Source of the DNA: Ianthella basta | Taxonomy: Eukaryota; Porifera; Demospongiae; Verongiida; Ianthellidae | DNA: 64,000 nucleotides | Reading direction: 5' to 3' | NCBI GenBank assembly: GCA_964019415.1 | Contig: OZ025886.1 | Span: forward strand, 2,595,584-2,659,583 | Shown: positions 13,819 to 61,049 of the stretch, piece by piece | Position numbering within the stretch: the stretch's first letter is position 1 | How the letters are laid out: each line of letters begins with the position of its first letter | Made by a program: the position numbers and the translations under genes | Notes under the pieces: generated by a model | Seen by the model: only the letters and a program-made list of their open reading frames with translations | Told to the model about the DNA's origin: nothing | Databases searched by the model: none

Positions 13819-15177
13819 ATGGCTAGCTCTTCTGGTGTTGCAGTGAAGAAGTGCATTGACTGCCAAAAGGCAGCTACTGAAGAAACTGGTGCAATTAGAT
13901 TGAAATGCAAGAAGCATTTCATCTGTGACAACTGTTGTGATAACAGGGAAGACTCTCCAGAGTTCACAAGAAAGATCCGTGAGTGCCAGAAGTGCCACCC
14001 TGAAGTGTTCCATGCTCAGCCACCTAAGGTGTGGATATATGTTGATGATTCTAACCTGTGGATTAGTGGAAAGAAGGCTTATGCTGAAGCTCACAAACTA
14101 CTGACTTCAGAAGATCCTCGAGCCAGGTTTGATATTGGCCGCCTGAATGAAGTGATAGCAGAAGGTAGGGAGGTGAGTAGTAGAACACTGTATGGTTCCA
14201 AGCCACCTCCCGTGGACACAGTCTGGGCAAAGATAGAAGAGCAAGGCTGGAAAGTGGATATCAAGCAGAAAAGCTACCACACTGGCAAGGAAAAGCAAGT
14301 AGACGTGCAACTAGTAGCAGATGTAGTGTCTTTAGTGAACCGGGAGAAAACTGGCACAGTCATAATTGTCAGCGGTGATTCTGACTATATACCAGCAATA
14401 AATGAAGCCCTTGCTCGAGGATGGAAGGTGGAGGTTTGGTCGTGGGAGAAAGCACTGTCTGCTGACATCAGGGACCATGAGAAAAAAGGCAAAGGCCTTC
14501 ATGTAGAATACCTAAATGGGCACATTCAACGAATCATGTTTGATAACAGTGTTTTTGACCCAACCAGATTCCACGAAGAAGGGCTACTGTCTCAGCTGAA
14601 GGAAGCTTCCATCCTACTCACAGTGAGCAAGAAAGACCTGCAAGGTGACAAAAAATGGAAGGAATTCACTGCTACTATTCAGAACATCACGAAATGGCCT
14701 ATTTCTTACATTCAAGTAAAAGCACAAGGGTATGTGGAAGTGTTGGCCATTTTTCTATCTGTACAAGATGATAAGCCTGACATAGACAAGAACATGAAGC
14801 TAATTGGAAAATCAAAGAAGAAGCTGAATCTTACAGCCAACCCAATGAAATTTTGTGATCTTCATGCTACATATAAACTTGAATGGCTGAAACCGTTGCT
14901 GTCTCAGTGCAAGGGCCTGGATGTGGAGTACGAGGATGATGCAAGCGACACACGATCCCGACACAGCTCAAGGTCTAGGTCATTGGTGCGCTACAGATCA
15001 GCAGAAAGGCATATCAAAACCGAACTCTGTCACCATCATGCTAAGAGCTCCTGCCCCAAGGGGGATAAGTGCCTGTATGCACACGGTGAATGTGATCCCA
15101 TGGCCTGGTGTGTTGTATGTAAAAAGAAAGGGCATGTTGCAGGAGGCAGGTGCCAAAGGATTGAAGTCAGGTCTTAA
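13819..15177 (+). CDS. RING-like / NYN RNase / CCCH / CCHC protein, paralogue 1
   Basis: Intronless, 452 aa. Residues 12-59 show C-x2-C-x14-C-x2-H-x2-C-x2-C-x16-C-x2-C, which fits C3HC4 RING spacing. Residues about 70-250 form a NYN (PIN-like) domain: YVDDSN (76-79), KQVD, SGDSDY, then GWKVEVWSW, so the acidic metal-binding positions are kept. A conserved but unassigned segment of about 120 residues follows, then a Ser/Arg stretch. Next comes a CCCH finger (C-x7-C-x5-C-x3-H in CHHHAKSSCPKGDKCLYAH) and a zinc-knuckle-like CVVCKKKGHVAGGRC, one residue longer before the last Cys than usual. By family analogy (Regnase/ZC3H12, MARF1, N4BP1) it should be an RNA endonuclease; the RING-like finger could recruit ubiquitin machinery or merely bind zinc. 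Head-to-head with RAD17. No family name recognised. Confidence 0.85.
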   Translation: MASSSGVAVKKCIDCQKAATEETGAIRLKCKKHFICDNCCDNREDSPEFTRKIRECQKCHPEVFHAQPPKVWIYVDDSNLWISGKKAYAEAHKLLTSEDPRARFDIGRLNEVIAEGREVSSRTLYGSKPPPVDTVWAKIEEQGWKVDIKQKSYHTGKEKQVDVQLVADVVSLVNREKTGTVIIVSGDSDYIPAINEALARGWKVEVWSWEKALSADIRDHEKKGKGLHVEYLNGHIQRIMFDNSVFDPTRFHEEGLLSQLKEASILLTVSKKDLQGDKKWKEFTATIQNITKWPISYIQVKAQGYVEVLAIFLSVQDDKPDIDKNMKLIGKSKKKLNLTANPMKFCDLHATYKLEWLKPLLSQCKGLDVEYEDDASDTRSRHSSRSRSLVRYRSAERHIKTELCHHHAKSSCPKGDKCLYAHGECDPMAWCVVCKKKGHVAGGRCQRIEVRS

Positions 15178-16145
15178 AAGTACATTTGCCAACTCATTTT
15201 AGCTAGTGCATGTCTGCATGGAGATTATATTATATACTACAGGTTGTAATATCTATCTATAGGATGTGTTGTTCGTGGTCTGTTTTAATACAATTGAAAA
15301 ATGACCACTATATGGTGAATTATAATTTTGTGTACATGCACACAGTATGCACATGTATCATGCAACCATTATATATAGTCAGTGATCAAGAATATGTTAA
15401 TCAATCACATTGTCAAGAATTTTGTGAAGGGGAAGCCTCAGTGGATGAGGGAGAACTGAAGGGGAATTCAGTGATATACACGTGCATGGTCATGATGTAA
15501 TTGTCATGTGTTACCATTTGACCATATATAGGTATCTAAGCACTGACAAGCTATGACAAGGTTGGCATGCAGGGTACAGTAGACTGAAGAAAACTAAATT
15601 TAGTTGAGAGGTGGAATTCAGCTACATATGGGCATGATTCTCATGCATTGCCCTATGACCAAAGCTATATAGCTATCTAAACTATGACAAGCTATAAGAA
15701 GGTCAACATATGCATGTAGGGTATATACATTAATATTTGCTCTTGTTGAAACCACAAGTGTTTCACTGGTGGAAGATACAAGAGTACCTATAGTCATCCT
15801 ATATACCTTCCATCAGTATGCCACACTGATGCATGAGCCCCAATTAGGGCGAACAGCTGTCTGTGGCTCTTCCATCTTTGTTGAATGACTGGGGGGAGGT
15901 GATCACTGCATGGTTGCTATCAATAGGGCTCCAGCCCCCCCCCCCCCCCCCCCCCCAGAGCCTCCTGAGGCACTATATATACAGCGTAGAAGGCTGGTAG
16001 GCATAAAATCCAGTGATTATAGGTATTTGTTCATGTAGGGTACATGATAGGAATCTATTTTAATTTTTAAAAATGAAACAGTTAATTCAGGAATAGGTTA
16101 AGAACATTGCCATGTTGCTCTTCAGAGGTTGAAGGAAGCAGTACA
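15178..16145. other. Region between RING-NYN gene 1 and duplication unit A
   Basis: No gene. It holds the 3' flank of paralogue 1 and two further copies (about 15390-15490 and 15590-15690) of the module found 5' of the RING-NYN genes (ggggaattcag, ggtcatgat, gctatgacaagg-type segments). These suggest lost gene copies or promoter-region repeats. A C-homopolymer tract lies at 15935-15956. Confidence 0.55.
15752..15960. repeat. Dispersed repeat, copy 3
   Basis: Shares gtttcactggtgg, atgagcccc, gaacagctgtctgtggctcttcc and gatcactgcatggttgc segments with 4158-4312, and weaker similarity with 1130-1432. It ends in a run of about 22 C residues. Confidence 0.55.
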
Positions 16146-16335
16146 TACAGTGTATAGACTGTCAGAGTTGGAAGATTGGCATGGTTAAGTTGAAGTGTAA
16201 GAAGCACATTATCTTAGCTGTTGGGGATGGGGAAGGCTGTCCAGAGTTTGAAGGAAAAGTAGCATACTTGTCAACCTGAAGTGTTTCAACCTCGAGATCA
16301 GTCACATTGATGATTCTAGCCTCAAGGAAAGAGGG
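16146..16335 (+). pseudogene. RING-NYN gene N-terminal fragment at left end of unit A
   Basis: Decayed remnant of the 5' coding part of a RING-NYN gene: atagactgtcagag (CxxCQ), gttaagttgaagtgtaagaagcac (LKCKKH), a gaatttgaaggaaaa-like segment, cctgaagtgtttcaacct (PEVFQP) and gatgattctagcctc (DDSsL). It contains frame breaks and deletions. The same remnant recurs at 35970-36152, so it marks the left edge of the tandem duplication unit. Confidence 0.8.
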
Positions 16336-16896
16336 TCAGTGGAACCTGCCTAAGACCTTGAGCCAGCTCTAACTGACCTTTATAAAGAGGTGGCTACCCT
16401 TCAGAGGTAAATTGACAATGTTTTAGTGCTATTTGAAGCCAGGGAGACTGGCTGTTTTAGAAGGGTGGCTGCCTTACACCGTGACCGTCTTAGACAGGTT
16501 CCACCTTATATATATTTCACTTCTTTGTTGTTTACTTACACTAGCTGTGACAAATTCACTTGGCCATACTTCCTATATCTTTCCCACAAGTTTGCATAGC
16601 TACATGAATGCATAACTGCAAACACAAACATTGTGTTTCCTATAGTGGAGAGTAGTCAATACATAGTATGATGTCATGAACCACAGGAATTTGCGAAGGG
16701 AAAACCATAGTTGATTAGGGAGAGCTGAAGGGGAAATCAGCAACACTTGGTCATGATTATCACGTGTTCCGCTGTGACCATAGATGCAGTGTAGGAGAAT
16801 TAGATCCAGTTAAAAGGGAATTCAGCTGCAGCCCTTTGAAATCGACGCTGTGACTGGACAGAAATCAAGAGACAGTTCAGAAATATTGATGAGAAC
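16336..16896. promoter_or_regulatory. 5' flank of RING-NYN gene 2
   Basis: Co-linear with 37861-38580 in unit B, including tgaccgtc-tagacaggttccac, gtagtcaatacatagtatgatgt and tcatgattatcacgtgttccgctgtgacc. It presumably contains the promoter. The cacgtg hexamer at about 16760 is an E-box-like palindrome conserved in unit B; its function is not shown. Confidence 0.5.
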
Positions 16897-18279
16897 ATGG
16901 CTATGGCTTTAGTGATTGAAGGAAAGCAGTGCATAGACTGTCAGAGTAAGAAGGGAGACATAGAACTGGTTAAATTGAAATGTAAGAAGCACTTTATTTG
17001 CGAAAGCTGTTGGGATAATAGAGAAACCTGTTCAGAATTTGAAGGAAAACACCGTGAGTGCCAAACTTGCCACCCTGAAGTTTTTCAGCCTCAGTCACCT
17101 AAAGTGTGGATATATGTTGATGATTCTAACCTGTGGATTGAAGGGAAGAAGGCATATGCTGAGGCACATAATCTAGTGACCTCAGAAGACCCTCGAGCCC
17201 GATTTGACATTGGCCAACTAAATGAGGTGGTGGCAGCAGGGAGGGAGGTCGGTGGTAGAACACTGTATGGCTCTAAGCCACCTCCCGTGGACACAGTCTG
17301 GGCAAAGATAGAAGAGCAAGGCTGGAAAGTGGATATCAAGAAGAAGAGCTACCACACTGGCAAAGAGAAGCAAGTAGATTCTCAGCTAATTACAGATGTA
17401 GCATCTGTAGTGAACAGAAAGAAGATCGGCACAGTCATCATTGTTGCTGGTGATGTAGACTACAAACCACCTATAGAGGAAGCCCTCGCTCGAGGATGGA
17501 AGGTAGAGGTGTGGTCATGGGAGAAAGCACTCTCTGCTGACATCAGGGGCCATAGGAGGACAGGTAAAGGCCTTCGAGTATTGTACCTTAATCACTACAT
17601 CCATCAAATTATGTTCGTTAATTGTGATTTTGACCCAGCCAGGTTCACAGATAAAGGATTACTGTCTCGGCTAAAGGAAACGTCCTTACTGCTTACAGTT
17701 AGTGAGAACAACCTGCAAGTTGGCAAAAGACGGAAGGACTTCACTGACACACTTCAGAATATCACAAAATGGCCAATTTCATACTATGAACCAATGAGAG
17801 ACCAAAAAGATGGATATGTTGAAATATTGGCCATTTTTCTGTCCGTAATGGACCAAAAACCAGACATCAACACATGCATTGGACAGATAGTGAAGGCAAA
17901 GAAGCAGCTGAGTCTTACAACCAATCCAATGAAATTCCGTGACCTTCTTGATAAATTTGGAGACAAACTTGTATGGTTGGAACCATTGCTGTCTCAGTGC
18001 AAACAGCTCAATGAGGAATGCAGAGACAATGCCAGTGATACACACTCGGTACACAGCTCAAGGTCAAGGAGGTCTTCAGGGTACTGTGGATCTGGAGCAG
18101 ATTCATTTAAATACAAATCTGAACTATGCCGCAACTACATGAAGAGCTCTTGTTCCAAGGGTGACAAGTGCAAATATGCTCATGGTGAACGTGACCCCTT
18201 GGCCTGGTGTCTCATATGTGGGAAGAAAGGGCATGTGTACACACATTGCAGGAGACAAGTGCCAATAATTATAGATTAA
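16897..18279 (+). CDS. RING-like / NYN RNase / CCCH / CCHC protein, paralogue 2 (unit A)
   Basis: Intronless, 460 aa, the same architecture as paralogue 1. RING-spaced residues run from C12 to C58. The NYN domain keeps YVDDSN, KQVD and GDVDY. The Ser/Arg stretch is followed by a CCCH finger (CRNYMKSSCSKGDKCKYAH) and a canonical CCHC knuckle (CLICGKKGHVYTHC, C-x2-C-x4-H-x4-C). It is nearly identical to paralogue 3 (38581-39954): by eye about eight substitutions and two length differences, one an extra Lys in DQKDGYVE. It diverges much more from paralogue 1. The open frame is intact, so both recent copies are probably expressed. The receptor A start codon lies about 600 bp downstream on the same strand. 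Predicted RNA endonuclease, cytoplasmic by analogy; substrate unknown. Confidence 0.87.
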   Translation: MAMALVIEGKQCIDCQSKKGDIELVKLKCKKHFICESCWDNRETCSEFEGKHRECQTCHPEVFQPQSPKVWIYVDDSNLWIEGKKAYAEAHNLVTSEDPRARFDIGQLNEVVAAGREVGGRTLYGSKPPPVDTVWAKIEEQGWKVDIKKKSYHTGKEKQVDSQLITDVASVVNRKKIGTVIIVAGDVDYKPPIEEALARGWKVEVWSWEKALSADIRGHRRTGKGLRVLYLNHYIHQIMFVNCDFDPARFTDKGLLSRLKETSLLLTVSENNLQVGKRRKDFTDTLQNITKWPISYYEPMRDQKDGYVEILAIFLSVMDQKPDINTCIGQIVKAKKQLSLTTNPMKFRDLLDKFGDKLVWLEPLLSQCKQLNEECRDNASDTHSVHSSRSRRSSGYCGSGADSFKYKSELCRNYMKSSCSKGDKCKYAHGERDPLAWCLICGKKGHVYTHCRRQVPIIID

Positions 18280-18881
18280 GTCTTTACCAGATGCATATTG
18301 TTACCATAACATATTGTATCATTTTATTTGCAGTAGGTCTGTGTTCTGATGGTACTATATGTCATCATTAATTCATTTTGCCTCCATCTGGGTGCCTATA
18401 GTATAGTAGCCCATTGGGCTATTAGCTATTTAGGCTCACCCAAAGTGATGAGGGTTACAACAACCACTACCACATGCACAGCAGCAGCGACAACAACAAC
18501 AGCACTGAATGAGGATCTAACTGAAACTGCTGTATGTTGCACCTATTTTACACACAACAGTTTAGCACACACCAATGTGTAGGACAGAGGTATACGTAGC
18601 TAGCTAGCTACTCTAGCTCACTAGGCCCTCCCTCAAAACAATTTGGATAAAAGCAGCTTTCTGAAGGATAGCCCTTAAGTCTACGCCAGCTCCATCTCAT
18701 TCAGTACATGTAGTTTGCATGGTCTGGAAACACAAGAATCAATTTTGGTTACACGGGGGCACAAATTTATATAAATGCCTGTGGGAGCAACTTTTCACTG
18801 GGGGCATCACTTATCGAGCGCTGTTCTGGAAGAAGTTTAATTGGCCGTCCTTCACAGTTCAAGTACCAGCTAGAGGCCATC
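18280..18881. promoter_or_regulatory. Spacer between RING-NYN gene 2 and receptor A
   Basis: Contains the 3' end of the RNase gene and the presumed receptor promoter. Most of it is co-linear with 39955-40648 in unit B, including the ccattgggctattagctatttaggctcaccc and acaaccactaccacatgcacagcagc segments. Small open frames here are not conserved between units, so I call no gene. Confidence 0.5.
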
Positions 18882-21800
18882 ATGAGACAGCGAAGATTGC
18901 GTCTTATACAGTTTTGTCTTTGTTCTGTTCTGCTCTCGTCTCTGGAGAACTGTGGTGATGCCCTTTCCCTTTCTGAATTCTTTGGTTATCCGTTCGGGGG
19001 TAACAGAGACACCGCCTTTCCATCGGTAGATGACACGTCGCTGTATATCAGCGCTTCGGTTCAATTTCCTTATTTCCACAACTTCTACCCAGGCATCAGT
19101 GTGAGTCGTGAGTGCACGCACTGCTCTCCGTAGCTATGCTATGCAAGATATACTCGCATGCTTGCACTTGGCCTGTAATAAGTTGACAATCAGTGTATTT
19201 ATGAGTTGACTTCACTCGAAATTTTATTGACAGTCCAACTGTCTGTGGTAATAGTGCTACGTAGCTGCACGACAAACCTGAAGTAAGCATGCACGTATCT
19301 TCAGCCCACGTATCTGGCACCAGGGTTAGGTTCTAGTCGGGCTGACTTTCTCTCTATAATACAACATATAATTATGTCAAAAGATTCCTAGTAGCACACG
19401 GCTGTTTTGCAATGGCAGCTTAGTGTAAATGGCCGCAGATTGGGAATCAGAATTCGGTCTAGAGCTGTACTGTGGGAAAGTTGGTTTTTAGCCTTTTTCT
19501 CAGTGAAAGTTGTGACAATCCACAGGAAACTCCGTATCAAGGTGGCAGAACAATGGATAATGTGCTGTAGAAGATGAAAGCATTGTTTATGCTGTTATGT
19601 TAGCGATATTTTGGCAAACATTTGCTCGTATTAAACGGATCGTTGTGCTTTTCTCCGGGTTTTCCTGCCAACATGCTATGCATGTCGTGATAGCTCAGCC
19701 ACTCTACAACATAGCAAAGGAGAGCTTGTTCTTGAGCCATTTTCTTACTTCATGTTTTTAACAAAAATAGAATAGTCACAGCTAATGAATAGTGCAGCAC
19801 TAGCATGTGTATAGGGTAGGTGACTATGAAGTGCACTTCCCCACGACCCCAGCTAGTGTCACTAAGTCTCAGTGAATTGACAGGGCCGTAGCACCAAGAT
19901 AAAAACCGGTCAGGCCATAGATGATGTGACGCAAACTAGGGGGGCCGGGAGCATGCCCCCCCCCCCCCCCCCCAGGAAATTTTTGAAAATTTGATGTTCT
20001 GTGAGTACTTCTAGGCCCATCAGCACTTCAATGAATATGATAAAATGTAACATAGACCAACAGGCACTTACAGCAGGAAAGGCAATCAAGTGCCATGAAA
20101 CAGGTAATACAATGCATTGAAATAAGAAGATTGCACATTAAAAATCAAAATCTAGTGTTTTTTTGGCTGTCTCTTTGATGCTAGGCAGCACAAATCTCTC
20201 CTACCCTTGAATAGAAGACACCATCAATGCAAAGGGAGTGGATATATGTTTCCTCCAAAAACAGGAGGAGGGCCGGTCCATGCAAAGAAGGGGGCCAGCC
20301 GGTCCATGCAACAAGGAGGGCTGGTCCATGCAAAACCCAGGTCATTAACATCCGCTGACTTTGAATACATTTTCACCATCCCTACATCTGCCAATATATT
20401 TCCGCTCTTGCGGTCTTGCTACCATCCCCTGTTTCTCCGCCTGCGTATTATAGTGCAAGTGTACATGTGAGTGTGCAATAACAAGGGTTGCCACAGGAGA
20501 CTTCCTATTGCATGCATATGCCCATTCAAGCTACGTACATGTTCCCATGTACAAATGTATACCACCATGCTGCATGCATACATCCGTGTACAGTGGATTT
20601 ATGCAACCTTACAACAGTTCCCATACCTGGTAGTCGTTACCTAGCATACGAACAGAGTGATATATAATAGGTGATTACAGTACCAGTCTGCATCCTAGGT
20701 AACAACTGCCCATGGTGTGGGAACTGTTGCAAGGTTGCATAAATCCGCTGTACATGACTGAAGCGCTACTGTGCTGTCTGATTATGCACGGTGATCGATT
20801 AGCACACCATTTTACGCATCAGAAAACGTCAAAAACGTCATGCGACATCCGTAAAATGGCTGCTGCCGTTAAGGTTGGTTAGAGGACTAAGTATCTGGCT
20901 ATTCCTTGTTCAAACTAAGTCCTGCAACACTTCAACAAGACCACTCCGCTTTTAGAACGTTGTTTAACCTTAGGCCAGTACCCCCCTCCCAACTTGAAAG
21001 TGTATTTAGAAGGCATATCTTCAATATTTAGAATATTGGTTCCAGCAGCAAAAAACAGTCTGGCCATGGCCGGACCGGCCGGACTGGGTGCTACGGCCCT
21101 GATTGAGAATTTTTCTGTATTGCAGTTTCTGCGCTTTGCCTTTGCTATAATTATTGAATCTGCAGTTTTTGAATGTGTTACTGTTTCATGCATGGTACAG
21201 CTATTAGCTAGCTAGCTTTTTGATCTGAAAGGACATGAACAGTTCATGACTGTTATCCCAGCCTGGAAACTGGAGTTGCATGACTACTGACTAGGAACTT
21301 CCAAAGAGGCATATGCTATGTGATAGCGCTATATAATTCAGCTTGCGTATTTATACGTAGTCACATAGAAGTATATAGGTATGAACTGGCAGTGCACTGA
21401 ATTATACTATCATGCATCCATGCCTACAAAGACCCATACAACAATAGAAGCTATGTATCATTGAATCAATTGACTAAAGCATAGTATATCAAATAGTGAT
21501 CCCTTCCAATTGCAACATTAATATTGCATGCATGTGTCAGTGTGGACACATTTTTACTGTTCTACACTGTTATATACAAATATGGTGTGACCATCACACC
21601 ACTCAGTGCTCACACCAATTAAGGGTGTGATCAGTCACACTATTACTTTAGTGTGACGTTCACACTGACACCAGTATCCACACTGTTGTTGACATCATTT
21701 CTGATAGACTTGGAAGTAATTTACACGTGAAGATGAGAGTTTATTTGGAATCCTACGAGCTATCTAAATACATACATAGCTACCCAGGATACAGCTTAGC

Positions 21801-24800
21801 CTGATGGTATGTTGTGTACAGTGGGAGGACCGCGTCAAACTAAGTGTGCAATTTAATGTACCGGCACTTTGTGTCAACCACTAACAAACCCACCAGGTGG
21901 TATGCTGTGTACCATATCTGTAGTGAAATGTACCATGAAGTGCTTAGTTTCTTACAAGCTGTTCACATAAATGGTATGTTGTGTACTGCATGGTTGGAGT
22001 AAACATCACACTGGAAATATGTGTGCTCACAGTGGCAACCAATTGACACTGATTATGGGTGTAATCATCACTCCCTATTTTAACAGTGTACCAAGAAACT
22101 TTCCCATGCACATGCCAGCATTACATCAAAGTTGCACCTTCTCACGGATTGTGTTGTACCGTGGATGAGGTGGCACTGGGCATTGGGGCTCCACGGTGAG
22201 CAAGGGGCAGAGTCAGTACACAATATTCTCAACACTTTATAGAGAGAACATACTGTGCAATGTGTAATCCACTGGAACGCATGAAGTTGATGCTTAATGA
22301 ACACATAATGCAAACTTTGCCATTGACAGCTCAACTGCATGCAGCCACCAATATAGAAAAGGAAGGAATGACGGAACACTCTCTTAGCAGATACATAACA
22401 TACTGAACTTATATATAATTATCTGCAGATTATGTAATACACCTAGACTTATTTAAAGCTTATGCTTAGACTAATAGTTACTGGGAAAAAGTATGCAATA
22501 AATCTATGTTATGCGTAACTTTGTAGTATAAGTGACAGTATAAGTAGTATAAGAGTCACACAGCATACAGGTGATCACTACTCATATATAAGTGTAATTA
22601 TTTGACTATCCTGAGGCTGTGATTACAGCTCTGAGCTGCTGATTGATGCCCTGTGTCCTGTGAGATCTTAATGCTAACAATTGTCTATATAGCAACCATG
22701 CAGCTAGCTAGCTTACACTATACTGTATAGTCAAAGCATTGCAGATCCAATTTAGCAAATGTAAAGCAAAACCTGCAATACAGAGACATTCGTCACACTA
22801 GCTGGGGTCGTGGGGAAGTGCATTAACTATATATGTAGTCACCTAGCTAGCTACCCTATACACATGCTGTGTTATGTGACTATTTCATTTTCGCTCAAAA
22901 CATGAAGTAAGAAAATGGCTCAAGAATAAGCTCTCATTTGCTATGTTGTAGGGTGGTTGGACTATCATGACATGCATCGCATGTCGGTAGGAAAACCTGG
23001 AGAAACGCACAACGAGCTGTTTAATACGAGCAAATGTTTGCCAAAATATCGCTAACATAACAGCATAAACAACGCTTTTATCCTTTACAGCACATTATCC
23101 ACTGTTCTGCTCACCTTGATACGGAGTTTCCTATGGATTGTCCTGGCTTTCACAGAGAAAAAGGTTAAAATATATTCGCTCCACGATACGAGGTGAAAAC
23201 TCGCATACTATTGACAGGTTTCCAAACCAAAACTAAGCTGCCGCCATTTACACATACGAAACAGCCGTGCCACCCGAAGGGCGGGCATTCAGCTAGTTAT
23301 TGCAATTGTCATACAACATGAATGGTCAAGACAAATTATATTGTTAAAGGATGTAATACATTATTACAATAGTCAAGGACAGTGGTCAAGCACAATGTCA
23401 AAGTATGATTAAAACATTCCTAGTAGCTAGACCACTTTCTCCTCTCCTTTGTACTGTGCCATTGTATAGGTGGATCAATGGCTGCCTGGTTGAACAGCTT
23501 GCCCTGACCACTAATGTCATTAAGTCCAAATTACATCAGTGATTAGAAAGTATACACAGACCTGGTATGGGTGTTGTTTGAGAAGGGAACTATATAAGTG
23601 GCAGAAACCTTCAATGATATTAATTTCAGCTCAGGGTGTAGGTGGAAGGTTCCAGATACATTATATTAGATGCTTGAAAATCATTGCAGCCAGGATCCAG
23701 AGTGGCTATAAATATCAGATACATAAAGCTAGCCGTGTCTGTCTATCTGTGTGTCTGCTATGCGTGCACGCATTTCTTGCTCCATCGGCTGCAAACTCGC
23801 TGTGGTTGATAAAAGTGCCGGGGTCAGGTTTTAGCGGGGTTGACGTTGCCCGTCTTGTAGTTTGCAGAGAGTTAATTAATGTTATCCTGCTATTTCCACA
23901 CAATCATCAGCTAGAGCATAATAAGGTGGCTTGATTCAGAAGAAATATAACCAATAAATACATGCACTATCTGCTGCATCTATCTAGCTATAGTTATATT
24001 TGTTTTGTATGCAGCTGATAAAAGCCTATATGGCCAAAGCATACGTCCTGCAATCAGTTTTGATTTCTGCTATGCCATTGCTCACAATCTATTTGCCTTT
24101 AGTGAACAATGTAGCAATGAGCCTCTGCAACATTATTGTCTTATCTAGTAGCATTCCTTACATTAAGCCATTTGTAGCTGTCTCTTGTATATATAGTATA
24201 CAAAGTACGCAATGCAACAGGAAACAAGACTTAATATATTATACCATTGTACACTTTGTACAACAAACAACTGCAGTGTTGTCATTTTGACATCTACTAA
24301 CGTCTTACATAGGGTGGAAACAGGTTAGAACATACACAGTTCTGACTTAATAGTGGTTAGAATTTATCTGTTTGAATGTCTTGAATTGTCTTTGATGTTG
24401 GAATTAATGCATGCATGATATTAATTGAATTTAACATACATACAATGTCATACATATGTACAATCATCATGCATACATGACAGAAGAATGAGCACTATAA
24501 TATTATAATTATACTTTGATGGCGCAATTGTATGTGTGCACCGATGTGCAAAAGAATGTCATTTGTAAATAGATTAAATCAAAATCATTTTGGTGTCTGA
24601 GTTAAATTGAAGTCAATTATGTTCTTCCCAAGCTATAGAGATCAGGTATATTTTATCATCACATACTGTACTATGTCTCAATACAACGTTCAAATTTCAA
24701 TTTCAATTCGTGTACCATTGATGGCAATTCACAATGAATCTCCATTCCATTTCAGGTAGACATCAATGGACATATCACCTTCTCAGATATACCTATAATT

Positions 24801-30800: not shown

Positions 30801-32975
30801 ATGATTATTGGTATAAATTAGAACGTAAGATGACAGCGAATTAAATCGGGGAAAACCGGAAGTCATTGGAAATGACAATAAGAAAACGGCGGTCATCCGC
30901 TAAGGAGAAAGTGGAAATGGAAGGATAACTCTCTGCAAACCGCAAGACGAGCGCAGTCAACCCCGCTATAACCTGACCCCCGGTACCCCTAGTAGCCACG
31001 GCTGGTTTGAGGGCGAACGAGCAAGAAGCGCGTGCGCGCATAGCGAACACACACACACAGACACTTTCGACTTTAGCTATATATTAGATGAATTATTACA
31101 GAAGCAATCATGTACTGAAATGAAAGTGTTAGTAAACTAGATGCATTTAGATTATGTCTGAGCTGGACAGCTAACCTAAGTAGTATCATAAGCACCCAAT
31201 GCAAGCTCCCTCCGTCATCATCTCTCAAGAAGCCAATTTGCCTGTCCATTAATATTGGACATGCCTTGGATCTCTGAAAAATTAAATAATACTGTTTATT
31301 TGAGTTCATGTGTAGTTATTGTTCTCAACAGCATTTTGCCCTGAAGTACAGTAGTGAAATACCACATTTGTATATAAGTATTTTCCAAAATAAATTATAT
31401 TCATGCAATAGCTTGTTCGTAGCTGAGAAACTAGTCAACATTGCATTGCACGTTGTTGCTTCTGTCACAGGGACATTTTGTGAATCTCTCTATATATGTA
31501 CGTATAGGGTGTTGTGGTGACCAGTTACTCCAGTGATGTCATATCAGTGGTGACTACCGCAGAGACAACCGCAGAGACAACCGCAGAGACAACCACAGAG
31601 ACATCCACAGTGTCCCAGACCATGTACATCACAACTGTGTCTGCAATGGGATCTGTCATTGCTTTTCTGGTACTATGTGCTGCACTGCTGACTACAGGAC
31701 TGCTGTGTAGCTATAGGTAGGTGTACTTGCATGTATAGGGGCAAGGCTCACTGTGTATTGTGCCTGTGATACTGTGTGCCATAAGTATATCAAAGCCTTA
31801 TGCAGCACCACCATAGAGAGTGTTGGTAGAGGAGTTAACCTCTGCTACTGGGTATATGAAGGCACAGCATTCCGGCCATTCCTGCCCAGTTCTAGTTAGT
31901 GATGTCCATGAATTTAGCCTGACATTAAAATTTAAAGCTGTTAGTTCATCTTGTCTAGTAGCTGCATGTATGGAATTAACAATGTAGTGTGAGCAATGGA
32001 TAGAATAAGTGAAAAGAAGTGCATAACAATTTGTTATTTGTATATATGATGGAACAAATTATAGATATACATTATGGTGATACAATAGCGGCAGTCCCTT
32101 AGCTGCTCTGCACCCTGCAGCTATAGTCATTCAGCAAGTGGCGTAGGATAATGTGGAGCAGCCTAAGATGTATTTTGAAGAGGTGATTACCATCAGATGT
32201 CGTAATTCATGATCAGGTAGTGTGGAATTCATCATATATTTTGATGGCATAGATCACTGCATTTGCCAACTGTTCTATGTATTCATAACTTCTTTCTTGT
32301 GCAACTGCTTGTTGCCCTGAGGCAGTCAATCTCATAAGTCATTCACAAGCTGTTCCACTGCATGGAGATGGCTGCAAAAGTAATGCACTATAGATAATCA
32401 TCCATCTATGAAGGCACCAGAGCATGGCTTTAATTGAATAGAGATTATTCATTCATTAGCAAATGTCTGATGAGCCGACAGCCAAAGCACACATGACAAG
32501 TTATTTTGAGCCCACATGCACTGTTACCAAGGCACTGGATATTATGCACCTGATTGTACATGTACGCTCAGGAGTTTGCTAGAGTGTCATGCAGTGCACT
32601 GTATATGTATACATATATCTGCATAAATGGCACAGCAATGCATACACAGCTGTATAGCTAGCAATTTCACTGGCTCACTTGTATACTGAATTAATAGTGC
32701 TAATTAAATGTCTTTGCAGAATGTACTTCCTTCAGAAACGTGTGGCTAAAGCAGATCAGCCTTCCTCCATCTATGAAGCTGTCCATGGTGAGAGGCATAC
32801 TGCCCCTGTGAATGCCGAGTCAGGATGTGTGGTGCAGGGTAATCCAGCTTATTGCTCTGTCGCCTACATGGACCACTCTGCCCGCCTGGGCACCATTACT
32901 GAGCGTGGGGCAACAGCTGCCATGCAGTTGCAAGTGGATGGAAGAGAGGAAGAAATCGAGAAAATTTATATATGA
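18882..32975 (+). CDS. NIDO-Ig-Ig-FN3-like transmembrane receptor A, 9 exons
   Basis: Exons: 18882-19100, 24756-25061, 27596-27809, 28067-28294, 29248-29499, 29932-30049, 30334-30568, 31508-31716, 32720-32975; phases match and give 678 aa. Order: signal peptide (RLRLIQFCLCSVLLSS), NIDO domain (about 28-246; VDINGHITFSD, LLVTWDHVAY, QLVVATDG), Ig domain 1 (about 247-322; LDCYQ, WYKDG, DFGVYQC), Ig domain 2 (about 323-406; SMECST, LGNYTC), an FN3-like region (about 407-524; LTVDGLQPSTAYLIF), Thr/Glu-rich stalk, membrane helix (about 568-591) and an 84-residue tail. The tail has SIYEAV (ITIM-like), NPAY (PTB/endocytic type) and VAYMDH. A 4-bp ATAT insertion close to the end creates a stop after EKIYI, removing the YDDV motif kept in receptor B. 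Type I surface receptor or adhesion protein; ligand unknown. Intron 1 hosts a 4-kb foldback element. Confidence 0.88.
19881..21101. mobile_element. DNA transposon remnant, hAT-like ends, nested
   Basis: Begins CAGGGCCGTAGCACC and ends with its complement (ggtgctacggccctg), each followed by a ccggtc-ggccat inner match. ATTGA flanks both sides (19876-19880 and 21102-21106). Ends starting CAGGG are typical of hAT elements, although an 8-bp target duplication is not intact. A C-homopolymer lies at 19956-19973. No transposase was recognised. Confidence 0.6.
20588..20753. mobile_element. MITE nested in the hAT-like element
   Basis: A 166-bp element with inverted repeats of about 55 bp: gtacagtggatttatgcaac at the left and gttgcataaatccgctgtac at the right, extending inward through acagttcccata. 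No coding capacity. Confidence 0.75.
23714..23910 (+). repeat. Dispersed repeat, partner of 30711-31084
   Basis: The segment running through ctatgcgtgcacgcatttcttgctc, gtcaggtt-tagcggggttgac and gtcttg-ggtttgcagagagtta matches the reverse complement of about 30905-31070. It lies only in receptor A intron 1; unit B has other DNA here. Confidence 0.6.
24011..24052 (+). ncRNA. Hammerhead-ribozyme-like motif, degenerate (Penelope-like tail)
   Basis: GCAG arm, CTGATAA core, short AAGCC/GGCC stem, a degenerate GAAAC position, then GTC and the CTGC closing arm. It aligns with 37755-37800 (3' end of the Penelope-like element) and sits at the same site as 44331-44370 in unit B. It is therefore the tail of an old element inserted before the duplication. 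The altered core suggests it is inactive. Confidence 0.45.
25447..26027 (+). mobile_element. Small DNA transposon remnant encoding a PHD finger
   Basis: Inverted ends TGTCATGC / GCATGACA are flanked by a 4-bp GTCC repeat (25443-25446 and 26028-26031), with GTTCCCCC-type subterminal repeats inside. A 79-codon frame at 25591-25830 encodes a PHD zinc finger (YCVCRG, CTACLEWYHESC, WFCGSCS), the kind found at the C-terminus of some animal transposases. It is probably the 3' end of a deleted autonomous element. It lies in receptor A intron 2 and is absent from the shorter unit-B intron. Confidence 0.65.
30711..31084 (-). repeat. Insertion of a dispersed repeat in receptor A intron 7
   Basis: A GC-richer block starting near ctagcagagtggcccgcc and ending near gactttagctatata interrupts sequence that is continuous in unit B (about 53941-54010). 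Its right half is the reverse complement of 23714-23870. It carries an acacacacacaca run near 31050. Probably a SINE-like insertion made after the tandem duplication. Confidence 0.6.
31556..31603 (+). repeat. 12-bp coding minisatellite in receptor A stalk
   Basis: Four tandem 12-bp units (ACCGCAGAGACA, the last one varied) encode Thr-Ala-Glu-Thr repeats of the extracellular stalk. Receptor B has a single unit here (near 54717-54728), so the stalk differs by 12 residues between the copies. Confidence 0.9.
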
Positions 32976-33706
32976 AGATGTGAAAGTAGGACAGTAATGC
33001 ATAGCCTGTAGGTCTTTGTCATATTGTTAGTGCATGTGTGATGTACTGTCACGAGACTATATCAGACAGCACATCATGTGTTTAGAGCTGTCTACATAGG
33101 GATGGTTGTAGTTGTAATACAGTGTTTTGCAAAATGCATATGGTTGTAGTGAATGTTATTTGACTCGATCTCAGTTCTCCTCTGAACATTGACCTCGTGT
33201 GGACTTGATGCCATAAGCAGCCCAAGGACCTAAGCCATGTACAGGAATTATGGCATTGTGTATTGTGCCAAAATGTGAGGCCAAAGCTCAGAGGCAGGCT
33301 ATGAGCCATTTACTAACTACTGTATACAGCAAAGCCTTAAGGCTGAGTAATTATTTTCTGCATGGCGGAAGTCCAAGTCCAATTGCAAAGTGTATAGGAT
33401 TGACTGATCAAAGTATATATATATAATAGATATATAGATGCATGCATGGTCATGTGAGCTTAAGCTTGCATTGATTGCAATTGCACTATATAAAGCAGAG
33501 AAGGGTGGTTGGTATATGCCAAATTGGGTCAATCGAGGCCCATGCAAGGTCACTGACTGCATAAGCTGCAAATTAAGTGCTAAGGACGATATCTGTGAGT
33601 ATGAGTGCATGACCAATATAAGTGATTGTCTTGCACTGGCCTTAATTGACCTGACTAAAGGCCATATTGAAGCTAAAATAAAGGGTATGGTAAGGAAATA
33701 ATACAA
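32976..33706. other. Receptor A 3' flank, converging on the CPLANE1 fragment
   Basis: Probably receptor 3' UTR followed by a short intergenic region, co-linear with 55969-56834. After the shifted stop, sequence matching the receptor B C-terminal codons (gatgtgaaagtaggacag) continues as UTR. An 87-codon frame at 33438-33701 is interrupted in unit B, so I call no gene. Confidence 0.5.
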
Positions 33707-35968
33707 TCAGTGCTCTAAAATGTTGTCCACTTCTGTCCAATCAATGTCTGTGAGAACACTGCTACTGGCGGAAGGAGTATCGTCATCTGTGACATCTCTC
33801 TGAACAGAACAGAATTGGGTACAAGACATTATTACAATTGCTAGCATGATGTAGGCCATCACAGACACAGTACATGCTTGGAGTACAACACAAAATGTCA
33901 GTGCACGTGATTCCTTTGTGTCAGCTTGAGACTGGATTTCACATGAGCTAGGGCTGGTAATACCATGATTGTAGTAAACTGACTATGTTGCAGAACTGTA
34001 TCTGGAAGCTCCAAAGTACAATACAGATAGTAGTTGCAAAGCCATGCATAATATTATGGATTCAGATATATTTATAAAGATGCATTGAAAGAGAGGATGA
34101 CAAGTACTGTACATGTACACAGGGAGGAGTCGCTGTTCCAGTGTGTCATCCTTTACTTAAGATGCACTGGTAATACCTTATAGCTATATACAGGGTATGG
34201 AATGGAACTGGATATACATAATTTTATACCTGAAAGGGTTGGTTCTCCAATACCAGCTTCACAACAGGGTTGAAAACCTTGCCGATGTTTCGACCAGTTG
34301 CTCTCGTCTTCTTCAGGGCGAAGAAACATCGGCAAGGTTTTCAACCCCTGTGTGAAGCTTGTATTGGAGAACCAACCCATTCTGATGCCTGAGCCAGCTG
34401 AGAAGCCCTCACTTCAATTTTATACCTTATGAGCAATCACATAAGACTGGAAAGAATTCAATGGTAAGACATTTCAACTGCAAAAGCTCCTGTACCTTGG
34501 CAGTCAAATTGGTAGTGGCGACTATGTGTACTTTCCTACACCAGGTTGCATGTGCCTACACAAACTATATACTGTGGCACTGTCCCTCTCTCACCAACAG
34601 CCGAGTGACAGTCTCTATTTCTTCTGCTGTCAGACCTTCCACACTTGCTATCTTCCTCAGAGGCTTGTGTCTGCTCTGATGATCCTTCACAGCTTCACCA
34701 AGCACAACAGGCCTAGGCATGGATGACAATGAGGAGCCTACCGGGAGTGAAAAGGGGACAAAGTCTGCACTGTATCTATTCACCATGCGATACCTGACAG
34801 TTGGTAAACTCAGTTTGCAGGATTATGCACCATAGTGGTAGGGCTAGTGTATGACCACACTGTGTAGCACATAGTACATAGTGTGCCCATCCTAACTATG
34901 CTACATTGAGGCTACCAACCTGCTGACTTTGTCCAGGTGCTTCTGGCTGACTGCATTGGTCTCTTTGCTCTCCTGGGCAGTCCTGAGGGAAGGGGAGCTT
35001 GGGAAAGCACCCGAGTACCACTTGCTACCGTTGAGTGTTTGCGGTTCTCCTTTGAGTGTTTCCTTGACTTCTGTGGCTGGTGGTGAATAATGTCTGCCAT
35101 CAATGCATAGGCATCATGTACTCTCTTTTCTCGATGTTCCTCAAGCAGCTCCCTGAAGGCAACAGGAATACACAGTGCAACAGTGCCAATCAGCATCATA
35201 CCAAGCAATGGAATGCTCACACTGGCCAGTTGTCCTTCACACTCAGTTATCTGTCAGAGAAACCGCTACATGATAGCTTACTTTAATAGTAAGCACAAAG
35301 TATGTACATATACTATGTCTTGTTTGGTCAATTCACTCATACAGCTTCTCAGTCTTGGGGAAATTGAGTACATGGCAGCAATGCAATGGCTGGGTGCATG
35401 CAGAGTTTGACTACTCAGGGATAGTTTAAGATTGACCAATAAGGGAGCAGTCCTTTGAGATTGCAAGCCAATTAAACATGCCCTTCCAATATGCTCATAA
35501 TGACATTTTACAATATATATCCTCCCTCAGATACAGTAGTCCCCACTAATTAAGGAGGCAACCACATGTTCACACACCTTCTTCTCTCTTGTCGTTCTCT
35601 CTGGTTTCTCTGTACCTAAGTATAAATTGAAAGTATATATACATGGAATAAAATTATATATAAACAGTACATGTGTATTTAAATTGTAATAGTGCATACA
35701 TTGCATCATTCCACATGTTTGCTAATGATGTAAGATCACAGACCAAAGTAGACACAAGTAATTATATATGTATACACTATAAGCTAAATGTACTGTACAA
35801 GGTTCCCCTTGTTCTCCACACACACAAATGAATCTGACTCTCACTCCACAACCCAACATTTCATAGTCACTCACACAGATGCTTACCCTTGACTGCACAG
35901 GAGGCACAAAAGGCCTCTTCTCCTTTCTGACACGAGAGTCACACTCGGATTTATATTTCTCCTCATAG
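33707..35968 (-). pseudogene. 5'-truncated duplicate of CPLANE1 (unit A)
   Basis: The last five coding exons of the gene at 56835-63586 are repeated here: 35968-35887 (cut), 35609-35578, 35152-34920, 34764-34595, 33799-33707. All their splice sites and frames are intact (EEHREKRVHDAYALMADII, FVPFSLPVG, DIDWTEVDNILEH then stop). The first retained exon is broken inside KEKYKSE at the duplication junction, beyond which lies RING-NYN remnant DNA. No promoter or start is evident. The second retained exon is 6 bp shorter than its partner. Likely untranslated, although transcription from a cryptic start could give a short C-terminal fragment. Confidence 0.85.
34232..34415. mobile_element. Short hairpin element with 12-bp target duplication
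   Basis: A 184-bp insertion flanked by aattttatacct at 34220-34231 and 34416-34427; unit B has one uninterrupted copy of this site. The arms (ggttggttctccaatac and its complement; aaaccttgccgatgtttcg and its complement) form a long hairpin. On the minus strand it reads CTGAAGAAGACGAG, then GGTCGAAAC, resembling a hammerhead core as in Penelope-like elements and retrozymes. Confidence 0.7.
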
Positions 35969-35975
35969 TGTATAG
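35960..35975. other. Tandem duplication junction
   Basis: Left of this point the sequence matches a CPLANE1 exon in unit B (tttatatttctcc at about 59918-59935). Right of it the sequence matches the start of unit A (tgtatagactgtcagagttgg at about 16151). The shared bases atag/tag at the join suggest short microhomology. Confidence 0.85.
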
Positions 35976-36152
35976 ACTGTCAGAGTTGGAAGATTGACAT
36001 GGTTAAGTTGAAGTGTAAGAAGCACATTATCTTAGCTGTTGGGGATAGAGAAGACTGTCCAGAATTTGAAGGAAAAGCAGCATACTTGCCAACCTGAAGT
36101 GTTTCAACCTCAGTCACATTGATGATTCTAGCCTCAAGGAAAGAGGGTCAGT
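35976..36152 (+). pseudogene. RING-NYN gene N-terminal fragment at left end of unit B
   Basis: Duplicate of 16146-16335 with the same frame breaks and remnants (LKCKKH, PEVFQP, DDSsL). It lacks 6 bp present in the unit-A copy. It runs into the Penelope-like insertion at 36153. Confidence 0.8.
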
Positions 36153-36166
36153 GGAACCTGACTAAG

Positions 36167-37846
36167 GACTTACAAGCTCGCCAAGGAACTAGCCCGCATC
36201 CTCACACCACTGGCTGGAAACACTGCCTACACGGTAAAGAACTCCACTGCCTTTGTGGAAAGGATACGGGGAGTACAGACTACACCACAAGACACCCTGG
36301 TGAGCTTCGATGTGAAGAGCCTCTTCACACAGGTCCCAGTTGAGGCAGCCCTCACAGTGGTAGAGGACAGTTATGCAAGGACCCCACATTAGGTGATAGA
36401 TCTAGCATCCCAGTCCCTCAGCTTGTGGAATTAACACGTCTCTGCCTTAGATCAACATACTTTCAGCTTGGAGATAAGTTTTATATATGAACAGACGGAT
36501 GGAGCTGCAATGGGTTCACCCTTGTCCCCAGTGATTGCCAACTTGTATCTGGAAAGCCTGGAGGAGACGGCTATACTATCAGCACCCTTCAAGCCCAAAC
36601 TCGGGGTGAGGTATGTGGACGACACGTTCGTCATCTGGACCCATGGACCTGACAGACTACAGTCATTCCACCAACACCTCAACAAACAACACCCCAAGAT
36701 CCAGTTTACAGTTGAAGAGGAGAAGGACGACCAGCTCCCCTTCCTTGATGTCCTGGTCACCAAGGAAGGAAGAAGACTACTGACCTCGGTGTATCGGAAG
36801 CCCACCCACACCGAAAGGTACATCCCTTACCACTCACACCACCACCCGAGGGCCACCACGGGAGTCCTGAGATGCATGAGGGACCGAGCACGTAACATCT
36901 GCCACCCCTCAAAGATTCAACAGGAGATGGACCATCTAAACCAGGTGTTCCAGGCGAATGGGTTCCCAGAGAACCTGGTGAAGAAGACCCTAACAACCCT
37001 CCCTTCCCCCCTCCCAGGAACCACGGATTCCCAACAACAACCGGAAGATGCACCCAAGATATTGTGCACCCCCTACATCAGGGGGCTCAGCGAGAAGATT
37101 GAAAAGGTCTGTGCCCCTCTGGGGGTGAAACCTGTCTTTAGACCCAAGAGAACTCTGAAGAAAGAACTAATGCAGGTCAAGAACAGGACCCCAGAGCAGA
37201 AACAGACAGGAGTGGTGTATGAAATCCCCTGTAAGGATTGCTCCAAGGTGTACGTGGGAGAAACCAAGAGGACACTAAAAGTCAGACTGAGTGAACACAA
37301 ACAAGCGTGAAACGAGGAGACCCCAAGAATGGCATTGCAGTTCATGTTCACAAGACCAACCACTGCATCAACTGGGACGGCGCCAAAGTCCAAAGAAGGG
37401 CAGAAGGGTTCTGGCAGAGGAGAACTGTGGAAGCCATCCAGATCAAGAAAGCCACCCCAAACATGAACCTGGACAGTGGCCTCCTCCTACCCATGGTCTG
37501 GAACCCCATCCTTAAACCACCCCCTCACCCACCCCCACTTCATCCCACTTTGTCTTAATCATGCATGGCTACTTTCCTAGCTTAATCATTGCTTATTTGG
37601 TAAACAATGCATGCCTTTACAGTTTATTATTTGTTACCTACCTTAGCCAATCAGACATCTGTTACCTTTAGCCAATCACAACCACGCACTAGCTCGTAAT
37701 ACCATTGGTCAGCGTTTGCTATGTAACTGGTCTCACACTGCTGTGTCTTTAGTTTTGTACGCAGTTGACAAAGGCTTACATGGCCGAAACGTCCTGCATC
37801 GATTGTTATTGATTCTGCTACGTATATGCTCATGATCAGTTCGCCC
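36167..37846 (+). mobile_element. Penelope-like retroelement, 5'-truncated, RT plus GIY-YIG
   Basis: Inserted between two copies of ggaacctgactaag (36153-36166 and 37847-37860). Unit A has this site once, as ggaacctgcctaag. The reading frame from about 36176 has SFDVKSLFTQVP, then after a break a 280-codon frame (36468-37310) with GSPLSPVIANLYLE, RYVDDTF (catalytic Asp pair) and YRKPTHTERYIPYHS. It then has the GIY-YIG nuclease start with a Cys pair (YEIPCKDC, VYVGETKRTLKVRLSEH). A frameshift near 37308 puts the rest of the nuclease (HKTNHCINWDGAKVQRR) in another frame. The element lacks its 5' part and is inactive, but little decayed. This RT plus GIY-YIG order defines Penelope-like elements. 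Confidence 0.92.
37755..37800 (+). ncRNA. Hammerhead-ribozyme-like motif at Penelope-like 3' end
   Basis: GCAG and CTGC arms enclose TTGACAA, a GGC/GCC stem, GAAAC and GTC, which is the core order of a minimal type I hammerhead. The first core letters differ from the CTGATGA consensus. Hammerheads are known in the terminal repeats of Penelope-like elements. Self-cleavage of this copy is uncertain. Confidence 0.5.
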
Positions 37847-37860
37847 GGAACCTGACTAAG

Positions 37861-38580
37861 ACAGCTACCTTTGAGCCAGCTCTAACTGACCTTTATAGAG
37901 AGGTGGCTATACCCTACAGAGGAATATTGTAATGTTTTAGTGCTATTTGAAGCCAGGGAGACTGGCTGTTTTAGAGAGGTGGCTGCCTTACACCGTGACC
38001 GTCGTAGACAGGTTCCACTATATACACTAACAGTATTATATTTGGAAGGCAGCACTGATCATGAGCCCACCAACCTTAAATTATCATTCACTCAGACAGT
38101 TTTTGAATAATGCGCTATATCCCATTCTAGTTTAGTCACTTGAGATCATAATTTACATAATGTGCTGCCACACTTCTTTGTTGTTTACGTACACTAGCTG
38201 TGACAAATTCATGTGGCCATACTTCCTATATCTTTCCCACAAGTTTGCATAGCTACATGAATGCATAACTGCAAACATAAACATTGTGTTTCCTATAGTG
38301 GAGAGTAGTCAATACATAGTATGATGTAATGAACCACAGGAATTTGTGAAGGGAAAAACATAGTCGATTAGGGAAAGCTGAAGGGGAAATCAGCAACACT
38401 TGGTCATGATTATCACGTGTTCCGCTGTGACCATAGATAGCTGTGTTAGAACAAGTTATAAATGGTTGTCATGCAGTGTAGGAGAATTAGATCTAGTTGA
38501 AGAGGAATTCAGCTGCAGCCCTTTGAAATCGACACTGTGACTGGACAGAAAACAAGAGACAGTTCAGGAATATTGATGTC
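37861..38580. promoter_or_regulatory. 5' flank of RING-NYN gene 3
   Basis: Co-linear with 16336-16896, with extra DNA (about 38028-38165 and 38440-38475) absent from unit A. It keeps the tcatgattatcacgtgttccgctgtgacc segment. No gene is seen. Confidence 0.5.
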
Positions 38581-39954
38581 ATGGCTATGGCTTTAGTGGT
38601 CGAAGGAAAGCAGTGCATAGACTGTCAGAGTAAGAAGGGAGACATAGAACTGGTTAAATTGAAATGCAAGAAGCACTTTATCTGTGAAAGCTGTTGGGAT
38701 AATAGAGAAACCTGTTCAGAATTTGAAGGAAAACACCGTGAGTGCCAAACTTGCCACCCTGAAGTGTTTCAGCCTCAGTCACCTAAAGTGTGGATATATG
38801 TTGATGATTCAAACCTGTGGATTGAAGGGAAGAAGGCATATGCTGAGGCACATAATCTAGTGACCTCAGAAGACCCTCGAGCCCGATTTGACATTGGCCA
38901 ACTGAATGAGGTGGTGGCAGCAGGAAGGGAGGTTGGTGGTAGAACACTGTATGGCTCTAAGCCACCTCCCGTGGACACAGTCTGGGCAAAGATAGAAGAG
39001 CAAGGCTGGAAAGTGGATATCAAGAAGAAGAGCTACCACACTGGCAAAGAGAAGCAAGTAGATTCTCAGCTAATTACAGATGTAGCATCTGTAGTGAACA
39101 GGAAGAAGATCGGCACAGTCATCATTGTTGCTGGTGATGTAGACTACAAACCACCTATAGAGGAAGCCCTCGCTCGAGGATGGAAGGTAGAGGTGTGGTC
39201 ATGGGAGAAAGCACTCTCTGCTGACATCAGGGGCCATAGGAGGACAGGTAAAGGCCTTCGCGTGTTGTACCTGAATCACTACATCCATCAAATTATGTTC
39301 GTTAATTGTGATTTTGACCCAGCCAGATTCACCGATAAAGGATTACTGTCTCGGCTAAAAGAAACATCCTTACTGCTTACAGTTAGTGAGAACAACCTGC
39401 AAGTTGGCAAAAGGCGGAAGGACTTCACTGACACTCTTCAGAATATCACGAAATGGCCAATTTCATACTATGAACCAATGAGAGACCAAGATGGATATGT
39501 TGAAATATTGGCCATTTTTCTGTCCGTGATGGACCAAAAGCCAGACATCAACACATGCATTGGACAGATAGTGAAGGCAAAGAAGCAGCTGAGTCTTACA
39601 ACCAATCCAATGCAATTCCGTGACCTTCTTGATAAATTTGGAGACAAACTTGTATGGTTGGAATCATTGCTGTCTCAGTGCAAACAGCTCAATGAGGAAT
39701 GCAGAGACAATGCCAGTGATACACACTCGGTACACAGCTCAAGGTCAAGGAGGTCTTCAGGGTACTGTGGATCTGGAGCAGATCCATTTAAATACAAATC
39801 TGAACTATGCCGCAACTACATGAAGAGCTCTTGTTCCAAGGGTGACAAGTGCAAATATGCCCATGGTGAACGTGACCCCTTGGCCTGGTGTCTCACATGT
39901 GGGAAGAAAGGGCATGTGCACACACATTGCAAGAGACAAGTGCCAATAGATTAA
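38581..39954 (+). CDS. RING-like / NYN RNase / CCCH / CCHC protein, paralogue 3 (unit B)
   Basis: Intronless, 457 aa. It is the duplication partner of paralogue 2, with all zinc ligands and NYN acidic residues unchanged (RING-spaced C12 to C58, YVDDSN, KQVD, GDVDY, CRNYMKSSCSKGDKCKYAH, CLTCGKKGHVHTHC). Differences from paralogue 2 are scattered conservative changes, loss of one Lys and a C-terminus two residues shorter. Retention of every key residue after duplication suggests both copies are still selected. Receptor B starts about 700 bp downstream on the same strand, repeating the unit-A arrangement. Function as for paralogue 2: predicted RNA endonuclease, possibly with a ubiquitin-related finger; substrate unknown. 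Confidence 0.87.
   Translation: MAMALVVEGKQCIDCQSKKGDIELVKLKCKKHFICESCWDNRETCSEFEGKHRECQTCHPEVFQPQSPKVWIYVDDSNLWIEGKKAYAEAHNLVTSEDPRARFDIGQLNEVVAAGREVGGRTLYGSKPPPVDTVWAKIEEQGWKVDIKKKSYHTGKEKQVDSQLITDVASVVNRKKIGTVIIVAGDVDYKPPIEEALARGWKVEVWSWEKALSADIRGHRRTGKGLRVLYLNHYIHQIMFVNCDFDPARFTDKGLLSRLKETSLLLTVSENNLQVGKRRKDFTDTLQNITKWPISYYEPMRDQDGYVEILAIFLSVMDQKPDINTCIGQIVKAKKQLSLTTNPMQFRDLLDKFGDKLVWLESLLSQCKQLNEECRDNASDTHSVHSSRSRRSSGYCGSGADPFKYKSELCRNYMKSSCSKGDKCKYAHGERDPLAWCLTCGKKGHVHTHCKRQVPID

Positions 39955-60961: not shown

Positions 60962-61049
<88 letters not shown>

Follow-up and report, generated by a model that had tools for sequence, protein, structure and literature searches.

A gene family of the sponge Ianthella basta with a RING-like C3HC4 cluster, a PF01936 NYN domain, a CCCH finger and a zinc knuckle in one chain

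A 64,000-nucleotide stretch of the genome of the demosponge Ianthella basta (assembly GCA_964019415.1, contig OZ025886.1, positions 2,595,584 to 2,659,583; hereafter the window) carries on its forward strand three intact open reading frames (ORFs) of 452, 460 and 457 amino acids (copies 1, 2 and 3) that form one gene family. All three show the same modular order, which starts with a C3HC4 cluster at the N terminus, continues with a NYN domain (PF01936) and ends with a CCCH finger followed by a zinc knuckle (Table 1). The initial annotation of this DNA had described three intronless paralogues that unite a Roquin-like finger and a Regnase-like RNase. The union of the four modules within one chain holds for all three copies, and each is uninterrupted, a statement that concerns the coding part only. 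By their domain sequences, however, these proteins are members of a further NYN/CCCH-type gene family and not a merged Roquin and Regnase. We consider it reasonably probable that they constitute a small, constrained RNA-decay family with built-in RNA-binding fingers, a cutting NYN domain and a RING-like module that serves docking or multimerisation in a role other than E2 binding.

Copy 1 is 67% identical to copies 2 and 3. The latter two differ by ∼7 nonsynonymous changes over 457 aligned codons and thus represent one recent duplication, not independent evidence. A search of the whole genome (209 Mb in 96 contigs), in which all copy counts are lower bounds, raised the number of intact copies to at least four. 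The fourth member, located on contig C7 (L004:1468-3078), encodes 537 amino acids with 38% identity to copy 1.

The NYN domain is the best supported module. The window copies match PF01936 with scores of 63.9, 48.3 and 48.3 bits (E values in Table 1) and the fourth member with 41.2 bits, all over the curated cut-off of 24.2, while no match to PF11977, the Regnase NYN family, was reported in the three window copies at E values up to 10. Five aspartates (D76, D77, D162, D187 and D189) are invariant in the four members, in agreement with the earlier observation that the acidic residues are kept; the accompanying ‘GDxDY’ motif is present in the window copies, but the fourth member reads GDSDA. When prokaryote genomes were scanned with the NYN alignment, 11 bacterial relatives with 31–36% identity were confirmed. 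The search started from a pair of NYN peptide patterns, and 11 of the 74 matches to them could be confirmed; it reaches the closest kind only and gives no measure of spread. The relatives sit in frames of 175–232 codons from stop to stop, leaving little room outside the NYN domain, and they keep the acidic columns, with D or N at the second of them (position 77) and GG in place of the GD pair in one protein (L023). A hidden Markov model (HMM) built from these 11 proteins retrieved all four family members at E values of 5e-34 to 6e-30, and no match to the Regnase-type and MARF1-like NYN exon pieces of the same genome was reported with E up to 10. At the sequence level, the predicted nuclease therefore belongs to PF01936 (DUF88/LK), and its nearest counterparts here are stand-alone NYN proteins of bacteria, not the Regnase enzyme; we take DUF88 to be the same family as PF01936. 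In viral contigs, neither a full-family scan (144 pattern matches) nor one with the NYN domain (117) found a relative, and at that sensitivity nothing points to a viral origin.

Separate genes of the Roquin, Regnase and MARF1 kinds are present in the same genome, these assignments being gene kinds by domain match and not tree-based orthologues. The single ROQ_II match of the genome lies on contig C12, where a frame up to ∼4 kb before it contains zf-RING_5 over its cut-off (3.2e-7) and ROQ (1.3e-34) and a frame after it contains CCCH (2.1e-5); the RING-ROQ and CCCH frames are ∼4.5 kb apart. PF11977 likewise matches once, in an ORF of contig C14 (E 2e-47, 161 bits) that belongs to a gene with a CCCH finger over the cut-off (1.9e-4) and a weak N4BP1 UBA match. 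A third NYN gene, on contig C15, is MARF1-like, a name that is our own recognition. No ROQ domain was matched by Pfam in any of the three window copies. The family is thus independent, neither a fusion of Roquin and Regnase nor their stand-in, and the labels ‘Regnase-like’ for the RNase and ‘Roquin-like’ for the finger are not supported.

The N-terminal cluster of copy 1 has the spacing C-x2-C-x14-C-x2-H-x2-C-x2-C-x16-C-x2-C. All four members fit the generic C3HC4 RING pattern with eight ligands at RING spacing, as had been proposed. When residues 1-65 were shuffled 100000 times, the pattern arose 4, 2 and 2 times for copy 1, copy 2 and the fourth member, respectively, and 20000 shuffles of the full chains produced it 1, 0 and 0 times. 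Between copy 1 and the fourth member, 17 of 65 aligned N-terminal positions are identical (26%), all eight ligands included; the probability of this by chance is ∼5e-6, a figure that overstates the case as Cys is conserved above average. The eight ligand positions are invariant in the four members, an arrangement that in sequence terms is typical of a structural zinc site. To place the finger, four classes from the same genome were compared by hhalign: 22 of 25 RING loci (without L054, L061 and L064), nine of 10 ZZ (without L075), 10 of 37 LIM and 10 of 149 PHD. The score against the RINGs, 20.0, narrowly exceeded all 150 column shuffles (maximum 19.6), with all eight ligands in register, whereas each of the ZZ, LIM and PHD scores was exceeded by at least five shuffles (single shuffles reached 20.9 for ZZ and 20.4 for LIM). 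A profile search of the PDB gave the TRIM5 RING as best match (E 0.015), with ligands 3–8 in register and the first Cys pair offset. Since RING came first in the four-class comparison, we take the finger as probably RING-like, even though all scores are below threshold. Classical E2 contacts involve a hydrophobic residue two positions after the first ligand (C1+2) and a Pro after the seventh. The top-scoring RINGs of this genome have I or V at the former position (21 of 21) and P at the latter (22 of 22), and all four family members carry D or E and Q or V, respectively, so that the E2-contact residues are absent. As a separate observation, contig C5 harbours at ∼9.1–10.33 Mb a large array of single-frame RING-bearing ORFs, dozens on both strands and mostly of ∼430–500 amino acids.

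At the C-terminal end, the CCCH finger of the three window copies is above the curated cut-off of PF00642 (Table 1), and two CCCH-like motifs can be read by eye in the fourth member. The zinc knuckle, as read from the sequence, is a canonical CX2CX4HX4C in copies 2 and 3 and the fourth member and CX2CX4HX5C in copy 1, with its ligands invariant in all four. For the middle region, Pfam gave no family at E values up to 1; in copy 1 (residues 225-370) this region is 23% identical to the fourth member. No OST-HTH (LOTUS) domain was matched in the full window copies (E up to 10), nor in the fourth member or the middle regions (E up to 1), and Pfam gave no RRM match in the window copies.

Overall, the window copies show purifying selection. 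The ratio of nonsynonymous to synonymous substitution rates (dN/dS), calculated by the Nei-Gojobori method, is about 0.25 between copies 1 and 2 (N-terminal region 0.22, NYN 0.16, middle region 0.28, linker 0.43) and 0.08 between copies 2 and 3. The CCCH-CCHC end is saturated for copies 1 and 2 and gives 0.13 for copies 1 and 3, and dS is saturated in most regions in comparisons with the fourth member. These member comparisons contain no sign of positive selection, and an arms-race role is therefore not favoured.

Several results weigh against a constrained RNA-decay family with a RING-like module. No RING family was reported when the three full window proteins were scanned with Pfam at E values up to 10. 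With the N-terminal domain alone, the HMM search proposed by the initial annotation did find zf-RING_5 in three of the four members (best E 0.029), but all matches are below the cut-off (14.8 against 27.9 bits), and CEBP_ZZ is slightly ahead at this finger (E 0.016). In an AlphaFold2 (AF2) model of copy 1 residues 1-69, with a mean predicted local distance difference test score (pLDDT) of 71.4, the top Foldseek rows are the TRIM32 RING without being significant, and RING, ZZ, LIM and PHD rows have comparable low scores. The whole-chain AF2 model is poor (pLDDT 35.6), which leaves sequence as the basis for the NYN fold and active site, and a PDB search with a profile built from the four NYN domains gave no solved structure at E values up to 10. 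Pfam reported neither of the two CCCH-like motifs of the fourth member at E up to 1. Constraint is also uneven across regions: the CCCH-CCHC end of copies 2 and 3 has three nonsynonymous changes and one synonymous change (0.72), and the N-terminal region gives 0.79 (copy 1) and 0.63 (copy 2) against the fourth member, with dS >1 and near saturation.

Copies 2 and 3 lie in a common segment of roughly 3 kb, which extends beyond the gene by about 0.75 kb on the upstream side and 0.9 kb on the downstream side (16149-19196 and 35967-40963, matching in pieces at 90–96%). The copy 3 segment has an extra stretch, 36166-37867, that is absent from the copy 2 segment; it includes a Penelope-like fragment (ORF 36510-37310, with RVT_1 just under and GIY-YIG just over the cut-off). 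Besides the remnants listed in Table 1, a 64-residue fragment of copy 1 (residues 34-97, 94% identical) lies on the same contig at a distance of ∼250 kb (L005:1504-1693), where it adjoins repeated peptide-like units and has the appearance of a gene piece that was captured or transposed. On contig C7, a truncated copy of the fourth member (L032:1468-1950) has 430 bases in common with it at 95%; its N-terminal finger is intact and the start of the NYN domain is altered, after which the frame soon leaves the family. Elsewhere in the window, the reverse strand carries an NmrA-like NAD(P)-binding oxidoreductase ORF (7759-8646), a 912-amino-acid ORF (60642-63380) with a long Cys-Val repeat derived from a simple repeat and two ORFs (48998-49846 and 50416-51042) that by eye look like retrotransposon remnants; neither the 912-amino-acid ORF nor these two had a Pfam match at E up to 0.01.

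Table 1. Coordinates of the family members, their modules and degraded remnants in the window
Feature	Position	Strand	Evidence
Copy 1, intronless ORF, 452 aa	13819..15177	+	ORF; Pfam NYN and zf-CCCH
Copy 1 RING-like C3HC4 cluster, residues 12-59	13852..13995	+	Pattern and shuffles; ligands kept in 4/4 members
Copy 1 NYN domain PF01936, residues 71-212; D76, D77, D162, D187, D189	14029..14454	+	Pfam E 3e-17
Copy 1 middle region without family assignment, residues 225-370	14491..14928	+	Alignment across members; 23% to fourth member
Copy 1 CCCH finger, residues 400-424	15016..15090	+	PF00642 E 9.4e-6
Copy 1 CCHC zinc-knuckle-like motif, residues 431-445, one residue over consensus length	15109..15153	+	Sequence reading
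Degraded remnant of another copy's N-terminal end	16149..16354	+	16148-16258 vs 16927-17049, 76%
Copy 2, intronless ORF, 460 aa	16897..18279	+	ORF; Pfam
Copy 2 RING-like C3HC4 cluster, residues 12-58	16930..17070	+	Pattern
Copy 2 NYN domain, residues 80-211	17134..17529	+	Pfam E 2e-12
Copy 2 CCCH finger, residues 406-431	18112..18189	+	PF00642 E 3.1e-8
Copy 2 CCHC zinc knuckle, CX2CX4HX4C	18208..18249	+	Sequence reading
Second copy of the degraded remnant, inside the duplicated segment	35967..36166	+	93% to 16149-16354
Copy 3, intronless ORF, 457 aa, recent duplicate of copy 2	38581..39954	+	ORF; Pfam; segment match
Copy 3 RING-like C3HC4 cluster, residues 12-58	38614..38754	+	Pattern
Copy 3 NYN domain, residues 80-211	38818..39213	+	Pfam E 2e-12
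Copy 3 CCCH finger, residues 405-430	39793..39870	+	PF00642 E 3.0e-8
Copy 3 CCHC zinc knuckle, CX2CX4HX4C	39889..39930	+	Sequence reading

In the RNA-decay mechanism that we favour, the CCCH finger or fingers and the CCHC knuckle would hold the target RNA, the PF01936 NYN domain would cleave it, and the RING-like finger would recruit partners or drive multimerisation and not act as a classical E2-binding ubiquitin ligase. This last point separates it from a less likely account, in which the protein is a true RING E3 ligase and an RNA-cutting enzyme at once, with ubiquitin transfer and cleavage in one chain. Such a ligase would fit the TRIM5 RING as best PDB profile match, the zf-RING_5 matches, the Foldseek rows headed by TRIM32 and the hhalign comparison, in which only the RING score surpassed every shuffle and the eight ligands fell in register; the residues at the E2-contact positions speak for the non-E2 role. 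The idea implicit in the initial annotation, that a Roquin half (RING and CCCH) was fused to a Regnase half (NYN and CCCH) to give a one-protein Roquin/Regnase system, draws on the occurrence of the same broad module types in one chain and on the cooperation of Roquin-1 and Regnase-1, which PMC9371910 gives as one of two models (also treated in PMC8894612). It is nevertheless very improbable and already largely refuted, because both gene kinds exist separately in this genome and the NYN domain belongs to PF01936 and not to PF11977; the missing ROQ match also tells against it.

We regard it as similarly far-fetched that the ORFs encode a mobile-element or gag-like protein instead of a host gene. 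The CCHC knuckle, the degraded copies nearby and elsewhere and the Penelope-like element within the copy 3 segment could be read in this way. However, only four intact copies were found in the 209 Mb, copies 2 and 3 share their flanks as in a segmental duplication, the genes are under purifying selection, and their ORFs have no reverse transcriptase or integrase match. For the origin of the family, we rather envisage that a bacterial-style stand-alone NYN domain was combined with eukaryotic zinc modules in a line of descent of its own, apart from the genes of Roquin, Regnase and MARF1 type.

Each known system shares a part of this architecture. Roquin (RC3H) has an N-terminal C3HC4 cluster and a CCCH finger further on, but it contains the ROQ domain that has no match here. 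Regnase (ZC3H12/N4BP1 kind) also combines NYN and CCCH in one chain, although its NYN domain is PF11977. In contrast to MARF1/Limkain b1, the family has no OST-HTH or RRM match and adds RING-like and CCCH fingers. The PF01936/DUF88/LK proteins are alike in their NYN family and, for the bacterial relatives, in mostly keeping the acidic columns. The LK nuclease has been reported in fusions with Zn knuckles, and OST-HTH proteins, some of them with LK nuclease, in fusions with CCCH and with RING fingers (PMC2848206); these ingredients are therefore known to mix. A literature search that did not extend to the 2006 NYN-domain paper, the PIN-superfamily classification or eukaryotic protein databases turned up no description of the architecture found here, and none was seen in passages of PMC3710099, PMC1779556 and PMC12982082. 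Within this scope, the statement that this is not a described family stands.

The best analogy and closest working model, though no more than an analogy, is the vertebrate set formed by ZAP, TRIM25 and KHNYN, in which RING, CCCH and NYN modules cooperate. These are three separate vertebrate proteins, with a NYN domain of a different family, whereas the sponge modules lie in one chain; for the sponge proteins, CpG targeting and immunity would be conjecture. According to PMC11685948, a designed fusion of the ZAP RNA-binding domain to the KHNYN NYN domain is potently antiviral and requires the NYN active site, and a fusion of the N-terminal multimerising part of TRIM25 to the ZAP RNA-binding domain is antiviral when KHNYN is co-expressed. 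It may be asked whether the sponge protein is a natural one-chain machine of this type, in which a multimerising RING-like finger, an RNase and RNA-recognition fingers act against transposon or foreign RNA, in an animal of an early-branching lineage; it would have evolved apart from the vertebrate set and be subject to gene birth and death. We consider this improbable; host mRNA decay would fit as well as an antiviral-type role.

If the domains work as read, the family would provide a compact RNA-decay enzyme with binding, cutting and docking in one chain, and a simple protein in which to study the contribution of a RING-like module to an RNase. It would also mean that animals arrived on more than one occasion at decay enzymes of the NYN-plus-zinc-finger type, starting from different NYN families.

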